NCBI GenBank assembly: GCA_025352825.1
Contig: JANXSG010000255.1
Coordinates: forward strand, 1-36,908
Source: Chthonomonadaceae bacterium
Lineage (GTDB): Bacteria; Armatimonadota; Chthonomonadetes; Chthonomonadales; Chthonomonadaceae
Direction of reading: 5' to 3'
DNA length: 36,908 nucleotides
Position numbers and translations under genes: made by a program. Shown here one piece after another: positions 1 through 21,900 of the stretch (its first letter is position 1; each line of letters starts with the position of its first letter). The notes beneath the pieces were generated by a model, which saw only the letters and a list, made by a program, of their open reading frames with translations, was not told the origin of the DNA and ran no database searches.

Positions 1-2582
1 GCTGGTGGGTTCGCCACATCAAGTGCAGGTGTATAGTTCTCAGAGCCTCGATTCGACTGGCCTAGCACTGCTGTGGAAACTGCTCCGTTCGATCCTTTTA
101 GAACTAGCGGTACATTCCAAGATTCATGATCGTTCTGCGGGGCAGCTTTCGTTTTTCGTTTCGCTGCCTTACTCGCTTGAGAAGCCGCACGCGAGTTTGG
201 ATTACTGAAAGTAATCGTCACACCTTCCGTAGAGATAATACGAATCCAGTAGCCTTTCCATGGCTCCAAAGTGTTCAAAGGAATGCTCGTATCCGAATCT
301 GCTGCAGGGTTCGAGAGATCGATATAGCTATTGCTGGTCTGTGAATAGGCGATAACCCCGGCAGCAACAAAACCCTGAGTCACGGCATCTGCCAGAGGGA
401 GTATATCGCCTCCAGGGGTAATCACCGTCACGTCAGTGGTAATATTCAAATTCACATTATACGGATTGGCTATCTGGTTCCAGCCAAATTCAGCAGCAAC
501 ACTAATGTCAGCCTGCGTATCTGTACGGATACCTTTTACTGTGACAGCCGTAGAGGTTCCGAAGTATCCCCATAGTGCATATCCCGGCTGGTACGGGCCG
601 AGTGATGGGTAGCGCACATATTTATCATCCGTCGTTAAGTCCTGACGATACTGTGCCAGGAGGGCAGTCGATGGAGCTAATCCCAGCGCTTTTGCAAAAT
701 CTGTGACTATCGGCCGGACTGGAAGCGAGATCATCTGAGGTCCGATAGGAAATGTATGGCTAAGTGTCTGTACCGATTCGGGAGCGTTAAGCACAAAGAT
801 TGGCGAAACTGAGAAAGGTTGATTTGGGTCGACATTCTCACCTCGTACGAATACATTTCGCTGAAATAGCACGGGAGCTACGCCGGCAGGTGTCAGCGTA
901 AAATGTACCCGGCTGAAACCATTTGGAATTGATGGAATAGCAGACAGTCCAAATGCACCCTGTGCGAATGTCGTGTTGATCACTCCGCCCCCACCATCGA
1001 ATGTGACGGCGAGATTGCCTAAATCCGCACCTACAACTACGCCGCTGAAACTATTGGGCGCAGTATCCAATCCCGCTTCGTTGGCTGGAAAATAGACCCG
1101 GGAGTATTCTTTACCAACAGGAAAATCCATGCTCAAGCGCATTTTGGGATTCGCGCCAATGCCAGAAAATATGGGAGATACAGGGCCAAATCCCTTTGTA
1201 ATAGACACAGAGTCGAATGAAGGTAGCGAGAGAATCTGAGAGCTGTTATCTCGGTAGACGATATTCGATGTTCCGGAGAGAGCAATTTCATCTCCGGAGC
1301 TAGTTGTCTGGTAGTAGCTCAGAAATACCGCAGCGCCTCCATCATTGGCAGATGAGCTGGTCGGAAAAGTTGGCTGGCTATAGACATACAATTTATTGCC
1401 TGGGGAGTTACTGGTATCGAGTATATATTGCCGCTCGAACCAGTCGTCAAATGCCAGCGACTCCACATTAGGGAGCACGCCAGCAGCGATTCCTCGGAGG
1501 GAATTTACATTGTTGAGGAGACTGTGATTACTCGCTGCTGCTGAGTAAAGCGCTGCATTAAAGTGCTGGAAAAACTGGGAATCTTCGATATAGCATTTCA
1601 GCCATGCCGTGGAGGACATCTGCATCCGGGGGAGCAGCATTCCGGAGAGAGTGTCTGGTTTGAAAGCTTGATTACTCGGTGTGGCAGGGGTGAAAGTGCT
1701 GTTACCCAATGCTGGTTGATTCAAAAGATCGTAGCTGGAAGTATAGTAGAAGCTGGTGGATGGATCGACCTGCTGGCCGACAGTCTGCCCGGTACCAGAT
1801 GCAGCGCTCGCTTTCAAATCTTGCGCTGCAATGATGGCTGCTGCTCGGGCCATCCCTTGCTCCCAGGCATCGTAACCTATCCTATAGGGGCCATGAAAAC
1901 ACTGTGCCATTGCTTGCGCCATGGCCATAAACCTGGTTTCGTAGGTTTGGAATTTGGGAAACCATATCTGCAGGCTGTTCCCATTCACCACCACCAGCGC
2001 ACCAAGAATACTATCGGTAAAATTTAGGCGAGGATCGTAGTTTATAATTTGAACTGGCGCTCCGCCCGTATTCCATCCGGGAGCTCCCAGCACGCTCTTA
2101 AGTTCCGGGTATAACAGGCTGACCAAATTCTGTAGATCCGCTGCTTCTGTATTTGACCAGGTTCCAGCAGTGCCATCCCCGGTTGGGATATTAAAGGAGA
2201 TATCGTTTGCCCCACGTGTTCTATTCGCCGGGATAGGTGGAATCATTCTGCCGTTATTCCTAATAATAGCGGCATCTACGATTCCGAGTTCCTGACTAGG
2301 TTTGATGAGATGGTGATCCCGAAGAAAAGTGAGTTCCTGCTGGAGCGCATTCGACTGAAACTTGAATCTTCCGGCATATCTGTTGGCTACAGCATTTCGG
2401 ACTTCTTCTCTATTGGCGGGATCGTTAACATCAACGATCAATGCAGACTGTGGGCCGCTTCCGATGGATCTGAACGGACGGTTCACAACATTTCGATAGA
2501 CAGCCTGCGAAAACGCGGATGTTCCAGCCTGTGTCAGAAAAAGCAGTCCCGCAATCTGAAAACAGCCTGTCAATCTTCTCAT
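1..2582 (-). CDS. Large secreted protein, C-terminus cut by window edge
   Basis: An open frame runs on the minus strand from ATG at 2582 to the left edge with no stop (about 860 codons); an AAGGA box lies 6 bases before the ATG. The N-terminus MRRLTGCFQIAGLLFL...SAFSQA looks like a signal peptide, so the product is probably exported. Around 1850-1930 the segment AQCFHG...YDAWEQGMARA resembles the region of some gluzincin-like secreted proteins where a helix HExxH is followed by a W-E-x-G-x-A helix, but the HExxH itself is absent. Near the left end the protein has FGWNQIANPY and then LEPWKGYWIRI, a motif pair common in cell-surface proteins of several bacterial phyla, followed by a beta-rich tail. 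No enzyme activity can be assigned. The real C-terminus, and any sorting domain, lies outside the window. Confidence 0.85.
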   Translation of the reverse strand, partial: MRRLTGCFQIAGLLFLTQAGTSAFSQAVYRNVVNRPFRSIGSGPQSALIVDVNDPANREEVRNAVANRYAGRFKFQSNALQQELTFLRDHHLIKPSQELGIVDAAIIRNNGRMIPPIPANRTRGANDISFNIPTGDGTAGTWSNTEAADLQNLVSLLYPELKSVLGAPGWNTGGAPVQIINYDPRLNFTDSILGALVVVNGNSLQIWFPKFQTYETRFMAMAQAMAQCFHGPYRIGYDAWEQGMARAAAIIAAQDLKASAASGTGQTVGQQVDPSTSFYYTSSYDLLNQPALGNSTFTPATPSNQAFKPDTLSGMLLPRMQMSSTAWLKCYIEDSQFFQHFNAALYSAAASNHSLLNNVNSLRGIAAGVLPNVESLAFDDWFERQYILDTSNSPGNKLYVYSQPTFPTSSSANDGGAAVFLSYYQTTSSGDEIALSGTSNIVYRDNSSQILSLPSFDSVSITKGFGPVSPIFSGIGANPKMRLSMDFPVGKEYSRVYFPANEAGLDTAPNSFSGVVVGADLGNLAVTFDGGGGVINTTFAQGAFGLSAIPSIPNGFSRVHFTLTPAGVAPVLFQRNVFVRGENVDPNQPFSVSPIFVLNAPESVQTLSHTFPIGPQMISLPVRPIVTDFAKALGLAPSTALLAQYRQDLTTDDKYVRYPSLGPYQPGYALWGYFGTSTAVTVKGIRTDTQADISVAAEFGWNQIANPYNVNLNITTDVTVITPGGDILPLADAVTQGFVAAGVIAYSQTSNSYIDLSNPAADSDTSIPLNTLEPWKGYWIRIISTEGVTITFSNPNSRAASQASKAAKRKTKAAPQNDHESWNVPLVLKGSNGAVSTAVLGQSNRGSENYTPALDVANPP

Positions 2583-18183: not shown

Positions 18184-19299
18184 TCACACAGCCACAGGGA
18201 CTGTACGTTCCCATTTCGCCATCCAGGAAGCTTCTTGTTCACGTTCTGCGCCCACACGCCGTACATCTACAGTTTGCCCGGTATCGGCTGCCTGCACCGC
18301 TCCCAGCGCTAGCGCAAGTGTATTCAGGTTATCTCTCCCGCTAGTTTCAGGTTCCATCCCCTTTTCGATGCAAGCTTGCCAATGATAGAGATCATAAGTA
18401 TGCCCACTCGCGCCTATCGATTCGGCATGGATAGGCTCACCCCATATATCGGGTAGAGGCGTGAAGAAGTGCTGATCTGTATAGATTGAGAGATCAGCAT
18501 CCTGCCGAAAAAGTCGGATTGGGCCCCACTCATCGCGCTGATTCCAAACGAGTGAACCTTTAGACCCGGTAATCACCCATCTGCCATTCCATCCTGTATC
18601 TACCCCTGGAGCAGCAAACGTACCGCTATAGTTGACACGCGCTCCCCCCTCAAATTCTATCCAAACAAATGCATTCATATCTCCTGCGGTATTACTTACG
18701 CTGGGATTCCATGTTTGCGCTGTTATCTTGGCGCCGTTTTTGCCAATAAGATACCGCATCATATCGAAATGGTGTACCGCCATATCCATCAAAAAGGGAT
18801 GCGGCATTATTTTTCGCCAACCCTGTAGCAGCCCCTGAATCTGGAACTCAACTACCATGTGATCGATTTCACCGATGGCTCCCTGAGATATCAATCGCCT
18901 GAGAGTACGCGGCTGATCTTGATAGCGATACTGCTGTGTTACCATCAATATTCTATCAAATTCTCGTGCAGACTGCACCATTCTTTGTGCAGCACGCATA
19001 TTTTCTGCAATCGGTTTCTCTACTAATACGTGAAGGCCGGCTTCCATTGCGGATATGCTGGTAGTAGGGTGACAAGGAGCAGGTGTTACATCGATCAGAC
19101 CGTCCGCATCTACTGAGTTCAATGCATCCTTCAACTGAGTAAATCTGCGTTCAGGAGGCACTCCGGTTATGTCACCTGCGGCCGTAAGTGCCTCCGGATT
19201 CGGATCAACCAGAGCCACATGTTCAGTTACATTGCAATCCCTGACAGCATAGAGCCAGCTCATTCCAAAATTACCAACTCCAGATTGTATCACCCTCAT
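18184..19299 (-). CDS. Gfo/Idh/MocA-family oxidoreductase
   Basis: NAD(P)-dependent sugar or cyclitol dehydrogenase-like protein of about 371 residues. The Rossmann motif GVGNFG is at residues 7-12, the acidic residue after strand 2 fits VDPNPE, and VLVEKPIAEN holds the conserved EKP with the catalytic lysine. HPFLMDMAVHHFDMMRYLIG is the family substrate-site helix with a His-x-x-Asp-like arrangement. ATG 19299 (MRVIQSGVG) is preferred because AAGGGG lies upstream and the Rossmann strand starts at once; the frame runs to 19329. The substrate is unknown; no kinase or isomerase neighbour helps. Upstream lies the repeat-rich region. Confidence 0.9.
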   Translation of the reverse strand: MRVIQSGVGNFGMSWLYAVRDCNVTEHVALVDPNPEALTAAGDITGVPPERRFTQLKDALNSVDADGLIDVTPAPCHPTTSISAMEAGLHVLVEKPIAENMRAAQRMVQSAREFDRILMVTQQYRYQDQPRTLRRLISQGAIGEIDHMVVEFQIQGLLQGWRKIMPHPFLMDMAVHHFDMMRYLIGKNGAKITAQTWNPSVSNTAGDMNAFVWIEFEGGARVNYSGTFAAPGVDTGWNGRWVITGSKGSLVWNQRDEWGPIRLFRQDADLSIYTDQHFFTPLPDIWGEPIHAESIGASGHTYDLYHWQACIEKGMEPETSGRDNLNTLALALGAVQAADTGQTVDVRRVGAEREQEASWMAKWERTVPVAV

Positions 19300-19629
19300 T
19301 CTATCAGTTCCCCTTAAAAAAATATCCAAATAATTTCAAAAAATTAGTTCGAGCCTTCAATTTCGCTTGCTTTTTCGTTGTATAGCTAAGTTAATGATAC
19401 ATTATAACGCTTAATCGTTTAACCTGCAAGTATTAGCACTTCGTAAAGGTGTCTATTTTTTCACAATTGGAAAAAAACGGGAAACATACGGGTGAGTACT
19501 CGCACCATTCTTCAATAGAAGATGAAAATTTTACCCTCACCCCCTGCCTCGATTCGTGATAATTTAAGAGCCTCTTGCAAAAGTCGAAAAATATCATAAA
19601 CACCCTTCGCGCCCTCACCCCCCGGCCCC

Positions 19630-19837
19630 CATAAGCGTTAGGTTAAGCTGTAAAATAGGGTTTCACAGTAGATTTTATGCGACCAAATGAATTTCTTCGC
19701 TTGGTAGCCTGCGGCTAAGTGTCCTTCGGACACGGGATTCGATGATGCTAGAATCGTGTGCGAAGCACACTCGGCGGAACGCCACCTAGCTAAGAAATTC
19801 ATTTCGTCGAGTCAGTGTATCTAACCTAACGCTTATG
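19630..19837. mobile_element. MITE-like palindromic element with nested hairpins
   Basis: Perfect 16-bp terminal inverted repeats CATAAGCGTTAGGTTA (19630-19645) and TAACCTAACGCTTATG (19822-19837) enclose a second inverted pair, AAATGAATTTCTT (19685-19697) and AAGAAATTCATTT (19792-19804), extendable to 18 bp with one mismatch. Between them lie small hairpins in series: TAGCC-TGC-GGCTA, GTGTCC-TTC-GGACAC, GATTC-...-GAATC, GTGTGC-GAA-GCACAC and GGCG-GAA-CGCC. The element is flanked by CCCCCCGGCCCCC (19618-19630) and CCCCCCGACCCCC (19838-19850), a near-identical 13-bp direct repeat that could be a target duplication or part of the host repeat. It codes for nothing I recognise. The rest of 19300-19617 is AT-rich and empty. 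Confidence 0.7.
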
Positions 19838-19873
19838 CCCCCCGACCCCCTCTCCCAAAAACAGGAGAGGGGG
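19838..19873. repeat. GC-rich palindromic repeat, copy A
   Basis: 36 bases beginning CCCCCCGACCCCCTCTCCC and ending CAGGAGAGGGGG; it contains its own hairpin (CCCCCTCTCC...GGAGAGGGGG). It is the exact reverse complement of copy B at 19974-20009. Confidence 0.9.
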
Positions 19874-19973
19874 TGACTTTGGCATGGGTTTGCCTGTATT
19901 TTATTAGGTTTTGATCTCACTACAAGCTCATCCCTTGCTTGTATGTAATGTGAAGACCAACGATTTAAAACTC

Positions 19974-20009
19974 CCCCCTCTCCTGTTTTTGGGAGAGGGG
20001 GTCGGGGGG
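19974..20009. repeat. GC-rich palindromic repeat, copy B (inverted)
   Basis: Perfect 36-base inverted copy of 19838-19873, lying 17 bases before the end of the FGE-fusion gene on the opposite strand. On the minus strand the hairpin follows that gene's stop and may serve as its terminator. Confidence 0.9.
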
Positions 20010-20025
20010 TGAGGGCATCCGCCAT

Positions 20026-21900
20026 CTAATTTGGTGGAGGTTTATTTTGCACACACCGAAATCCTACAGTAAGGTTAGCAATCGTCCGGGGGGAAGAAAA
20101 ATATCTGTGTGCACATCGGTGATGGCTTCTGTCTGCGGTGGCTGTACTTCCTCGAATCACATGATATTTTTGCTCGAACAATATGCGGTGAAATTTGGAG
20201 TCAGAATAGGCAGCATACCAGCTCGAAGTCCATTGGCAGACGTTGCCTACCATGTCCACACAGCCATACGGGCTGATACATGCAGTGACACGACCTTGCG
20301 GATCCGCATTTTTGGCAGCGACGATACCGATATCATAGATATTTCCCCAGGGGAACACTCTTCCGTCTGTGCCACGTGCAGCTTTTTCCCACTCTTGCTC
20401 CGTAAGTAGTCGCTTACCAAAATATTTAGCGTAGGATGCAGCCTGATTCCAATTCACGAGGGCTGGGCATAGATCTTTTCCATCAGGATAGACCCAGGTT
20501 TTATCAAATCGCGTATATTGAAGATTCGTGACCAGGTATTTATCGATCCAGAAAACAGGTAAAACTTCTTTCCGAAGAGGCCCTTCATCTCGGTCGCCTT
20601 CATCGGAGCCCATCTGGAAAGGAGAAGCGCTTACTTTAACCATACTTTCAAGATCGAGGGGAATTGATGGAGGAGGAGTACCCGGCTGAATAAGTATTGG
20701 TACATCGGGCCTTGCAGGGGTATTCATATCGTGCAGAAGAGCAGCTTTTTCGATGAGTTGGTGATATCGCCCGTACCAATAAGCCAGTAGGAACTGGCTG
20801 GGCGCATCCTGCCAGGTGCCATCAATTTCGATATCGCCCTCATTGGTACGGATTTTCTGTTTTCGAGATTCGGGTTCTCCTTTATATTCCAGCAGGGAAT
20901 TAAGAGTATGCGAATCGATTCCTTCTCTGAGATGCCGCTCCATCACGAAATCATAATATGGGTGATGCAGATACTGGAATGCCATCCAGTTCCGTCTCAT
21001 GGCCGTTTTGAACAGATCACGCAAGGCTGCCCCTTTTTCATATGCCATGAGTCGATCTAGCGCTTTGATCATACTCATATCTTCATCCTGATGACCGTTG
21101 CGCTCCATCGCAGCGAGGTCTACTTGTACGGCCTCCTCAGCATAGTGTTCATATTTTATCAGCCTTAGGTATTCGTTCATAAAACTTTGTTCACGAGTAA
21201 TTCGGAATGCGCAAATTAGATTTTCCAGAGCTAGCAGAGCATTTAGATGATCGTGAGGCAACTTGGAGCTCATGTTACCCTGCAGAGTCATCTTATCATA
21301 GTCATCTGTAATCCGCATCTTATTTGTGAGCACTCTCCTCATGACTCGGGAGACGACAGCACTAATTTGAATTTTTTCTGAATCATTTGCAGCGAGATCG
21401 AAAAAAGTAGAAAGGCCGAGAAGCCAATCTGAAAGCTGAATGACACTTGTATCCCCAAGCCAGAGGTAACCAGGCATCGATTGAGATACATTCCACTTTT
21501 CGGTGTTATAATACTTACGCTTTTCAATACCTGGTTTTATAGACTTAATATAGGCGCATGCTATGCAGCCGGGTGTGCCGGTCACCTTCTCAAGATTCAG
21601 CAGTGCCATCGCAGTGTTAACTGCTGATTTGCGCGTAAATGAACTTGAAGTGGTGGCAAATTCAAAAGAAAGTGATTGCAGATATTCACCAGTACGACTG
21701 CAAACTTTATCATAATCATCTCGAATTAGTACCGGACTGCCCGAAACTGGGCAAATGATGGTGGGGATGATAAGGCCGTCGAAGTTGTGATCTTGCTGCA
21801 CTCTTCGAGTGAGTACCAGCACCTTGTCTGCCAATTCAGTTTTAGTGGTTGAAGTTTGTGGGTTTTGAAAACAGATAAGACTGAATAAGAGCAGAAACAT
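20026..21900 (-). CDS. Helical domain fused to FGE-sulfatase (SUMF1-type) domain, secreted
   Basis: 624 residues with a short hydrophobic N-terminus (MFLLLFSLICFQNP). Residues about 25-385 are helical and related to the C-terminal domain of the product at 6603-8549 (LGDTSVIQL and QISAVVSRV; domain end AYWYGRYHQLIE). Residues about 415-620 are an FGE-sulfatase domain: FQMGSDEGDRDEGP (428-441), KRLLTEQEWEKAARG (496-510), GNVCQWTSSWYA (552-563), VIRGS (581-585) and TVGFRCV (611-617). In true formylglycine-generating enzymes two cysteines sit in Cys-x4-Cys; here RSHHRCAHR keeps only C596, so sulfatase activation is doubtful and a binding or other oxygenase role is equally possible. GGAGG lies 4 bases before the ATG. 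Confidence 0.85.
   Translation of the reverse strand: MFLLLFSLICFQNPQTSTTKTELADKVLVLTRRVQQDHNFDGLIIPTIICPVSGSPVLIRDDYDKVCSRTGEYLQSLSFEFATTSSSFTRKSAVNTAMALLNLEKVTGTPGCIACAYIKSIKPGIEKRKYYNTEKWNVSQSMPGYLWLGDTSVIQLSDWLLGLSTFFDLAANDSEKIQISAVVSRVMRRVLTNKMRITDDYDKMTLQGNMSSKLPHDHLNALLALENLICAFRITREQSFMNEYLRLIKYEHYAEEAVQVDLAAMERNGHQDEDMSMIKALDRLMAYEKGAALRDLFKTAMRRNWMAFQYLHHPYYDFVMERHLREGIDSHTLNSLLEYKGEPESRKQKIRTNEGDIEIDGTWQDAPSQFLLAYWYGRYHQLIEKAALLHDMNTPARPDVPILIQPGTPPPSIPLDLESMVKVSASPFQMGSDEGDRDEGPLRKEVLPVFWIDKYLVTNLQYTRFDKTWVYPDGKDLCPALVNWNQAASYAKYFGKRLLTEQEWEKAARGTDGRVFPWGNIYDIGIVAAKNADPQGRVTACISPYGCVDMVGNVCQWTSSWYAAYSDSKFHRILFEQKYHVIRGSTATADRSHHRCAHRYFSSPRTIANLTVGFRCVQNKPPPN

Follow-up and report, generated by a model that had tools for sequence, protein, structure and literature searches.

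Probable nesting of a REPIN-like hairpin pair within two MITEs in a Chthonomonadaceae genome

Introduction

REP sequences are common bacterial repeats, and the manner in which they spread is still debated. The locus described here lies in a 36,908-nucleotide stretch of DNA (the window; GenBank assembly GCA_025352825.1, contig JANXSG010000255.1) from a Chthonomonadaceae bacterium of the Armatimonadota. The source genome assembly (G000) comprises 4.87 Mb in 298 contigs and is 95% complete. An earlier note on this DNA had pointed to a series of small hairpins between inverted repeats. Is this series one elaborate mobile element, a structured RNA or an assembly of parts from different elements, and what could have moved it?

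Anatomy of the 208-bp element

The 208-bp segment with perfect 16-bp inverted ends that the earlier note had described is found at 19630-19837, where the left end (CATAAGCGTTAGGTTA) is a perfect inverted repeat of 19822-19837. The second inverted pair that had been seen inside it is formed by 19680-19734 and 19755-19809, which are 55 nt long and 80% complementary. The small hairpins in series number seven (H1-H7), with loops TTC and GAA among them. Direct repeats of 12 bp (CCCCCCGGCCCC and CCCCCCGACCCC, 11/12 identical) stand flush with the element; the near-perfect repeat of the earlier note is thus present, but it was given there as 13 bp since the first C of the element had been counted with it. 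The proposed folding of the 208 bases was carried out, and they are far more stable than their shuffled versions (RNA z -7.3, DNA z -9.0; 0/200 shuffles equally stable). The features of the element are as follows.

19630-19837, no strand, IS4-type MITE of 208 bp without ORF (multi-copy, perfect 16-bp terminal inverted repeats, empty sites)
19630-19645, plus strand, left terminal inverted repeat of the 208-bp MITE
19822-19837, minus strand, right terminal inverted repeat of the 208-bp MITE
19680-19699, hairpin H1
19705-19717, hairpin H2, loop TGC
19719-19733, hairpin H3, loop TTC
19736-19755, hairpin H4
19756-19770, hairpin H5, loop GAA
19773-19783, hairpin H6, loop GAA
19791-19809, hairpin H7
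19838-19849, plus strand, right copy of the 12-bp direct repeat

Copies and a related IS4-family element

Elsewhere in the genome there are about nine copies, full or partial, that have the ends of the 208-bp element. Several are 96-98% identical and others are partial or diverged; the copy search suggested in the earlier note is thereby answered with further copies at 97-98% identity. Several copies end contigs, the repeat having broken the assembly there. Searching the genome with the end sequence also gave two elements of 1.34-1.35 kb that end in CATAGGCGTTAGGTTAAG or in a sequence close to it (L050 and L053). The first (L050, 513-1854) is an IS4-family element with CATAGGCGTTAGGTTAAG ends, encoding a transposase of 348 aa that matches PF01609 (DDE_Tnp_1) at 8e-18 and the IS4 model NF033592 at 118.5 bits (cut-off 115); it contains YRIRWQIELQFKNLK, which matches the YREK signature. 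The second (L053) is another copy with a related transposase. The left end of L050 differs from that of the 208-bp MITE at one of the first 18 bases, and outside the ends the interiors of the insertion sequence and the MITE have no evident similarity. Target duplications of the IS4 family are about 10-13 bp long. The direct repeats agree in 11/12 positions in the window, 10/12 in the copy L005 and about 10/11 at L050; the flanks of L053 form no direct repeat.

The 208-bp element is a non-autonomous element (MITE), as the earlier note had supposed: it has other copies, empty sites and repeats like target duplications. The further suggestion that it is mobilised by a transposase encoded elsewhere gains support from an IS4-family element with nearly identical ends, the mobilisation itself being inferred. 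The 1.34-kb IS4-family element is most likely the transposase source. Like other MITEs of IS4-family elements, the 208-bp MITE has terminal inverted repeats in common with a full insertion sequence of its own genome, no ORF, direct repeats of 11-12 bp and a nested position; unlike them, it has an interior unrelated to the insertion sequence, consisting of the paired ends of another transposon.

The ends contain GTTAGGT and ACCTAAC, which resemble the core sites of integron attC sites. The attC consensus has RYYYAAC at the 5' side and GTTRRRY at the 3' side of one strand, and GTTAGGT fits GTTRRRY. In this element the order is the reverse, GTTRRRY preceding RYYYAAC, and the sites form no array. 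Its ends also delimit an IS4-family element that encodes a DDE transposase. The attC reading was rejected on orientation, and we give it practically no credence.

The host MITE and its empty sites

The insertion had been placed in a GC-rich repeat, and this repeat proves to be an arm of a second MITE family. The host MITE is about 260-265 bp long; its ends are of the type GAGG.AATTGCAAAAGTC, and its inverted arms are long and GC-rich. The genome contains 247 occurrences of the end pattern GAGGTAATTGCAAAAGTC at up to three mismatches (control, 6). No right terminal repeat of the host MITE is recognisable in the window, where the following parts are found.

19568-19585, plus strand, left terminal repeat of the host MITE (GAGCCTCTTGCAAAAGTC), which aligns with the ends of the host MITEs L114, L107, L130 and L133
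19611-19629, plus strand, GC-rich host arm to the left of the inserted element, ending in the left direct repeat (12 bp, 19618-19629)
19838-20016, no strand, rest of the host MITE, with GC-rich inverted arms (19838-19873 / 19974-20009, 19997-20016)

For the empty-site comparison the insert and one copy of the 12-bp repeat were taken out of the window sequence, and the remainder was aligned to uninserted copies of the host MITE. The alignment runs unbroken across the junction in five of these copies; identity is 72-74% in the best three (L114, 183/247; L107, 182/246; L130, 179/247). Such copies are the empty sites for which the earlier note had proposed to look. A match of the host arms (19838-20009) to the Rfam microRNA precursor MIR7533 scored 50 bits against a gathering score of 230 and was attributed to chance.

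The hairpin core and its covariation

The inner part of the 208-bp element is a 130-bp core in which a 55-nt module of three hairpins, Ha, Hb and Hc, occurs twice in inverted orientation.

19680-19809, no strand, 130-bp REPIN-like core, an inverted pair of three-hairpin modules (models R1 and R2 match both halves)
19680-19734, minus strand, left module, Hc-Hb-Ha along the plus strand (R1, 76.0 bits)
19755-19809, plus strand, right module, with Ha GTGTGC-GAA-GCACAC, Hb GGCG-GAA-CGCC, and Hc (R1, 78.3 bits)

The module consensus is GTGTsC-GAA-GsACAC for Ha, GsCs-GNA-sGsC for Hb and CGAaGAAAT-TC-ATTTCgTCG for Hc. An AGC before Hc is almost invariant, the bases directly 5' of Hc reading nAGC in module orientation rather than GTAG. 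The stems covary. In alignment A1 there are 81 double-sided changes against 32 in shuffled controls, with the counts of the sister genus lowered by an Hc misplaced by one base; in alignment A2, which covers five genera and is biased towards the model to which it was fitted, there are 116 against 29. Copies, empty sites and covariation were all found, the opposite of the single copy with neither empty site nor covariation that the earlier note had named as the case against it.

The covariation is strong, and the window element is intergenic, lying between ORFs at 18184-19329 and 20026-21900. Both would suit a structured RNA, in which the transcribed module acts as a terminator, an mRNA stabiliser or a small RNA and was spread for that function. 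Covariation is equally expected if the folded form is single-stranded DNA, however, and Rfam has no family for the element at gathering score or at a lax E-value. Inverted pairing and the two-sided flanking of Y1 genes (below) suit transposon ends better, and we regard the RNA reading as unlikely, although the module may have a secondary RNA role alongside that of a transposon end. The Ha loop reads C-GNA-G in 41/49 sequences. Triloops of the d(GCGAAGC) type are unusually stable in DNA, and the resemblance of the Ha loops to them hints that single-stranded DNA may be the folded form of the module.

Distribution of the module

When the genome was queried with the full element, some 30-35 loci matched, many of them over the inner 130 bp only. 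A covariance model matches 107 times in the source genome, 135 times in a sister genus (Chthonomonadaceae LF-bin-356), 66 times in a genome from a different family of the order, and 11 and 10 times in two more genomes; the other 26 genomes gave none or single marginal matches. A second model has 143 matches in the source genome, and among these some 31 inverted pairs belong to the subtype of the window. Another abundant module subtype among the matches in the source genome (CCCGCCCGCAGGGCGG...) often lies between GTGAAAGTAAT-type ends. In a pattern scan of 84,980 species the double-hairpin motif recurs in LF-bin-356 only; single matches elsewhere have no obvious three-hairpin context and were put down to chance.

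Could the core simply be the interior of one elaborate CATAAGCG-ended MITE, kept for its own transposition? Every intact CATAAGCG-ended copy above 95% identity does have the core, at the same position. Yet the same core lies in MITEs with unrelated ends, between another type of terminal repeat (L022-L029, L118, L120, L129, L134), and in further contexts (L012, L016, L019, L092, L094), while the IS4-family element that shares these ends has no core. The 135 modules of the sister genus, one of them seen between AGGGTGTTGAAAAAGTC-type ends, and the modules that flank Y1 genes also argue against a single MITE, and we consider this reading very improbable. For the 130-bp core by itself no empty site was found. 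The earlier note had called the layout more elaborate than ordinary REP or terminator palindromes, but it is not one elaborate element. The series of hairpins is a separate module family, which also occurs in other settings and on the flanks of IS200-type genes.

At L101 (about 465-600; G000 contig C139) lies a relative of the CATAAGCG-type MITE in which the core is nearly gone, its first 23 bases being left. At L272-L311 (G000) a module near 300-355 of each locus belongs to the second subtype (CCCGCCCGCAGGGCGGTTGGCCGCAGGCCTTCCAGACGGGTACTTCAGTGCCCGG), often between GTGAAAGTAAT / ATTACTTTCAC ends. Other hairpins precede these modules, some of them of the end type found at the Y1 locus L239, which gives chimeric pairs.

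Association with Y1 transposase genes

Paired inverted hairpins recall REPINs, and the order was therefore searched for Y1_Tnp; the flanks of 30 Y1-domain loci were scanned with the module model. In the sister genus (L228) a Y1 gene at 1480-1911 lies between a module at 1397-1451 on the minus strand and one at 1921-1974 on the plus strand, both within 30 bp. In the source genome (L226, contig C171) a Y1 gene at 1402-1872 lies between modules at 1328-1382 (minus) and 1878-1931 (plus). The orientation of the modules around both genes is that of the window core. Weaker matches to the module model lie at the Y1 loci L224 and L243. The second Y1 gene of the source genome (L239) is flanked by a different inverted multi-hairpin end, matched 40 times in the genome, so that each of its two Y1 genes is flanked by its own repeat type. 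Neither carries the exact subtype of the window (GTGTGCGAAGCACAC...), and no Y1 gene flanked by that subtype was found in this assembly, which suggests that the window subtype may now travel only as cargo. In genomes G004 and G009 modules are present and no module-flanked Y1 gene was found.

The Y1 proteins are 137-156 aa long, match the IS200-type TnpA model NF033573 at 85-90 bits (cut-off 55) and contain a YxxxQ motif (YVQNQ, YIENQ, YIYNQ). Against the RAYT model NF047646 they score 33 bits, below its curated cut-off of 80, and a canonical RAYT reading was rejected on this score. The HuH motif (HVH) and the tyrosine are intact in L228 and L239. In L226, the nearer of the two Y1 genes of the source genome, the first histidine is lost, and with its HuH motif reading RIH this TnpA is probably catalytically dead; the repeat subtype of L226 is abundant although its TnpA reads RIH. 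For the L228 protein there are matches to solved single-strand transposases, that of ISHp608 among them.

Related modules thus flank an IS200-type gene on both sides in two genomes, and for this reason we read the core as a REPIN-like pair of Y1-transposon ends, the cargo of at least two MITE families. The locus as a whole is very probably made of three nested mobile layers: the host MITE, the 208-bp IS4-type MITE and this pair of ends.

Comparison with known systems

REPINs or BIMEs with a RAYT (TnpA-REP) are multi-copy palindromic units in inverted pairs, which flank a Y1 HuH transposase gene (PMC3116915, PMC2817692). The module is likewise a dispersed palindromic unit in inverted pairs, and its units flank Y1 genes (L228, L226), although these are of related subtypes and not the exact subtype of the window. 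The present system differs in its three-hairpin unit of 55 nt, its IS200-type proteins below the curated RAYT cut-off, a Y-motif of YxxxQ and not YxxxN, the lack of a canonical GTAG foot at Hc, and the carriage of the units in DDE-type MITEs.

Class 3 TnpA-Y1 proteins have an IS200-like Y-motif and multi-copy atypical structures beside the gene, and are reported to be possible intermediates between insertion sequences and REPtrons; they are reported mainly from Planctomycetes, Acidobacteria and Proteobacteria, with the foot CnGA (PMC6006769). The proteins described here resemble that description in YxxxQ and in the multi-copy atypical hairpins beside the gene, and may belong to the class. The CnGA foot has no clear match in the module.

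IS200/IS605 elements insert beside a fixed tetranucleotide and produce no duplication. Their non-autonomous derivatives (PATE-like) keep both hairpin ends of a Y1 element but lack its gene. The 130-bp core also has two hairpin ends and no gene, but its ends are similar inverted copies. The TnpA of L228 and L239 further resembles IS200/IS605 in its HuH motif and catalytic tyrosine, with RIH in L226.

Proposed mechanism and significance

We infer the acting enzymes, the order of events and the single-stranded step of the following scheme. The analogy with TnpA-IS200 and TnpA-REP suggests a Y1 transposase that would recognise single-stranded modules in their folded form, make its cut at the foot and then move or copy them. 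Such an enzyme most likely once spread paired ends that lacked the gene. One pair would later have entered a CATAAGCG-ended MITE and another a ATTGCAAAAGTC-ended MITE, whose multiplication by DDE transposases would have amplified the core as a passenger. In the window, the 208-bp MITE, presumably moved in trans by the IS4-family DDE transposase, would have entered the arm of the host MITE and duplicated 12 bp.

Each layer is of a known sort and is well explained by known kinds of element. The family of three-hairpin repeats associated with Y1 genes, packaged as it is in DDE MITEs, appears to be a so far undescribed form of the REP/REPIN-Y1 transposase system in Chthonomonadaceae; in the literature searched we found no report on REPs or MITEs in Armatimonadota, which does not in itself prove novelty. 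Hairpin pairs tied to IS200-type transposases inside cut-and-paste MITEs suggest a second route of spread, and the system may represent a stage between IS200 elements and REPtrons in the Armatimonadota. More tentatively, and with the balance slightly against it, this could be a REP system of its own kind, in which low-copy IS200-type TnpA proteins are each paired with a three-hairpin end, the stems drift by compensatory change and the pairs spread mainly as cargo of DDE-type MITEs; one element would then be subject to two unrelated transposition chemistries.

Two further observations concern the module itself. A sequence starting GTGCGCC, like the 5' end of a group II intron, interrupts the core after GTGTGCGAAGCACACTCGG (the GAA hairpin, TCGG) at the same place in three G000 contigs (L054 1-101, C261; L055 2657-2757, C182; L103 2346-2492, C21). 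At L103 it matches the group II intron domain model RF02003 with 32.6 bits (E 1.6e-5), below the gathering score of 49; the interruption is consistent with introns that target hairpins, this match being sub-threshold. In genome G028, module pairs recur every 190-240 bp or so in one stretch (L202 776-1303, L203 634-1008, L204 505-895), an arrangement like that of a BIME cluster.
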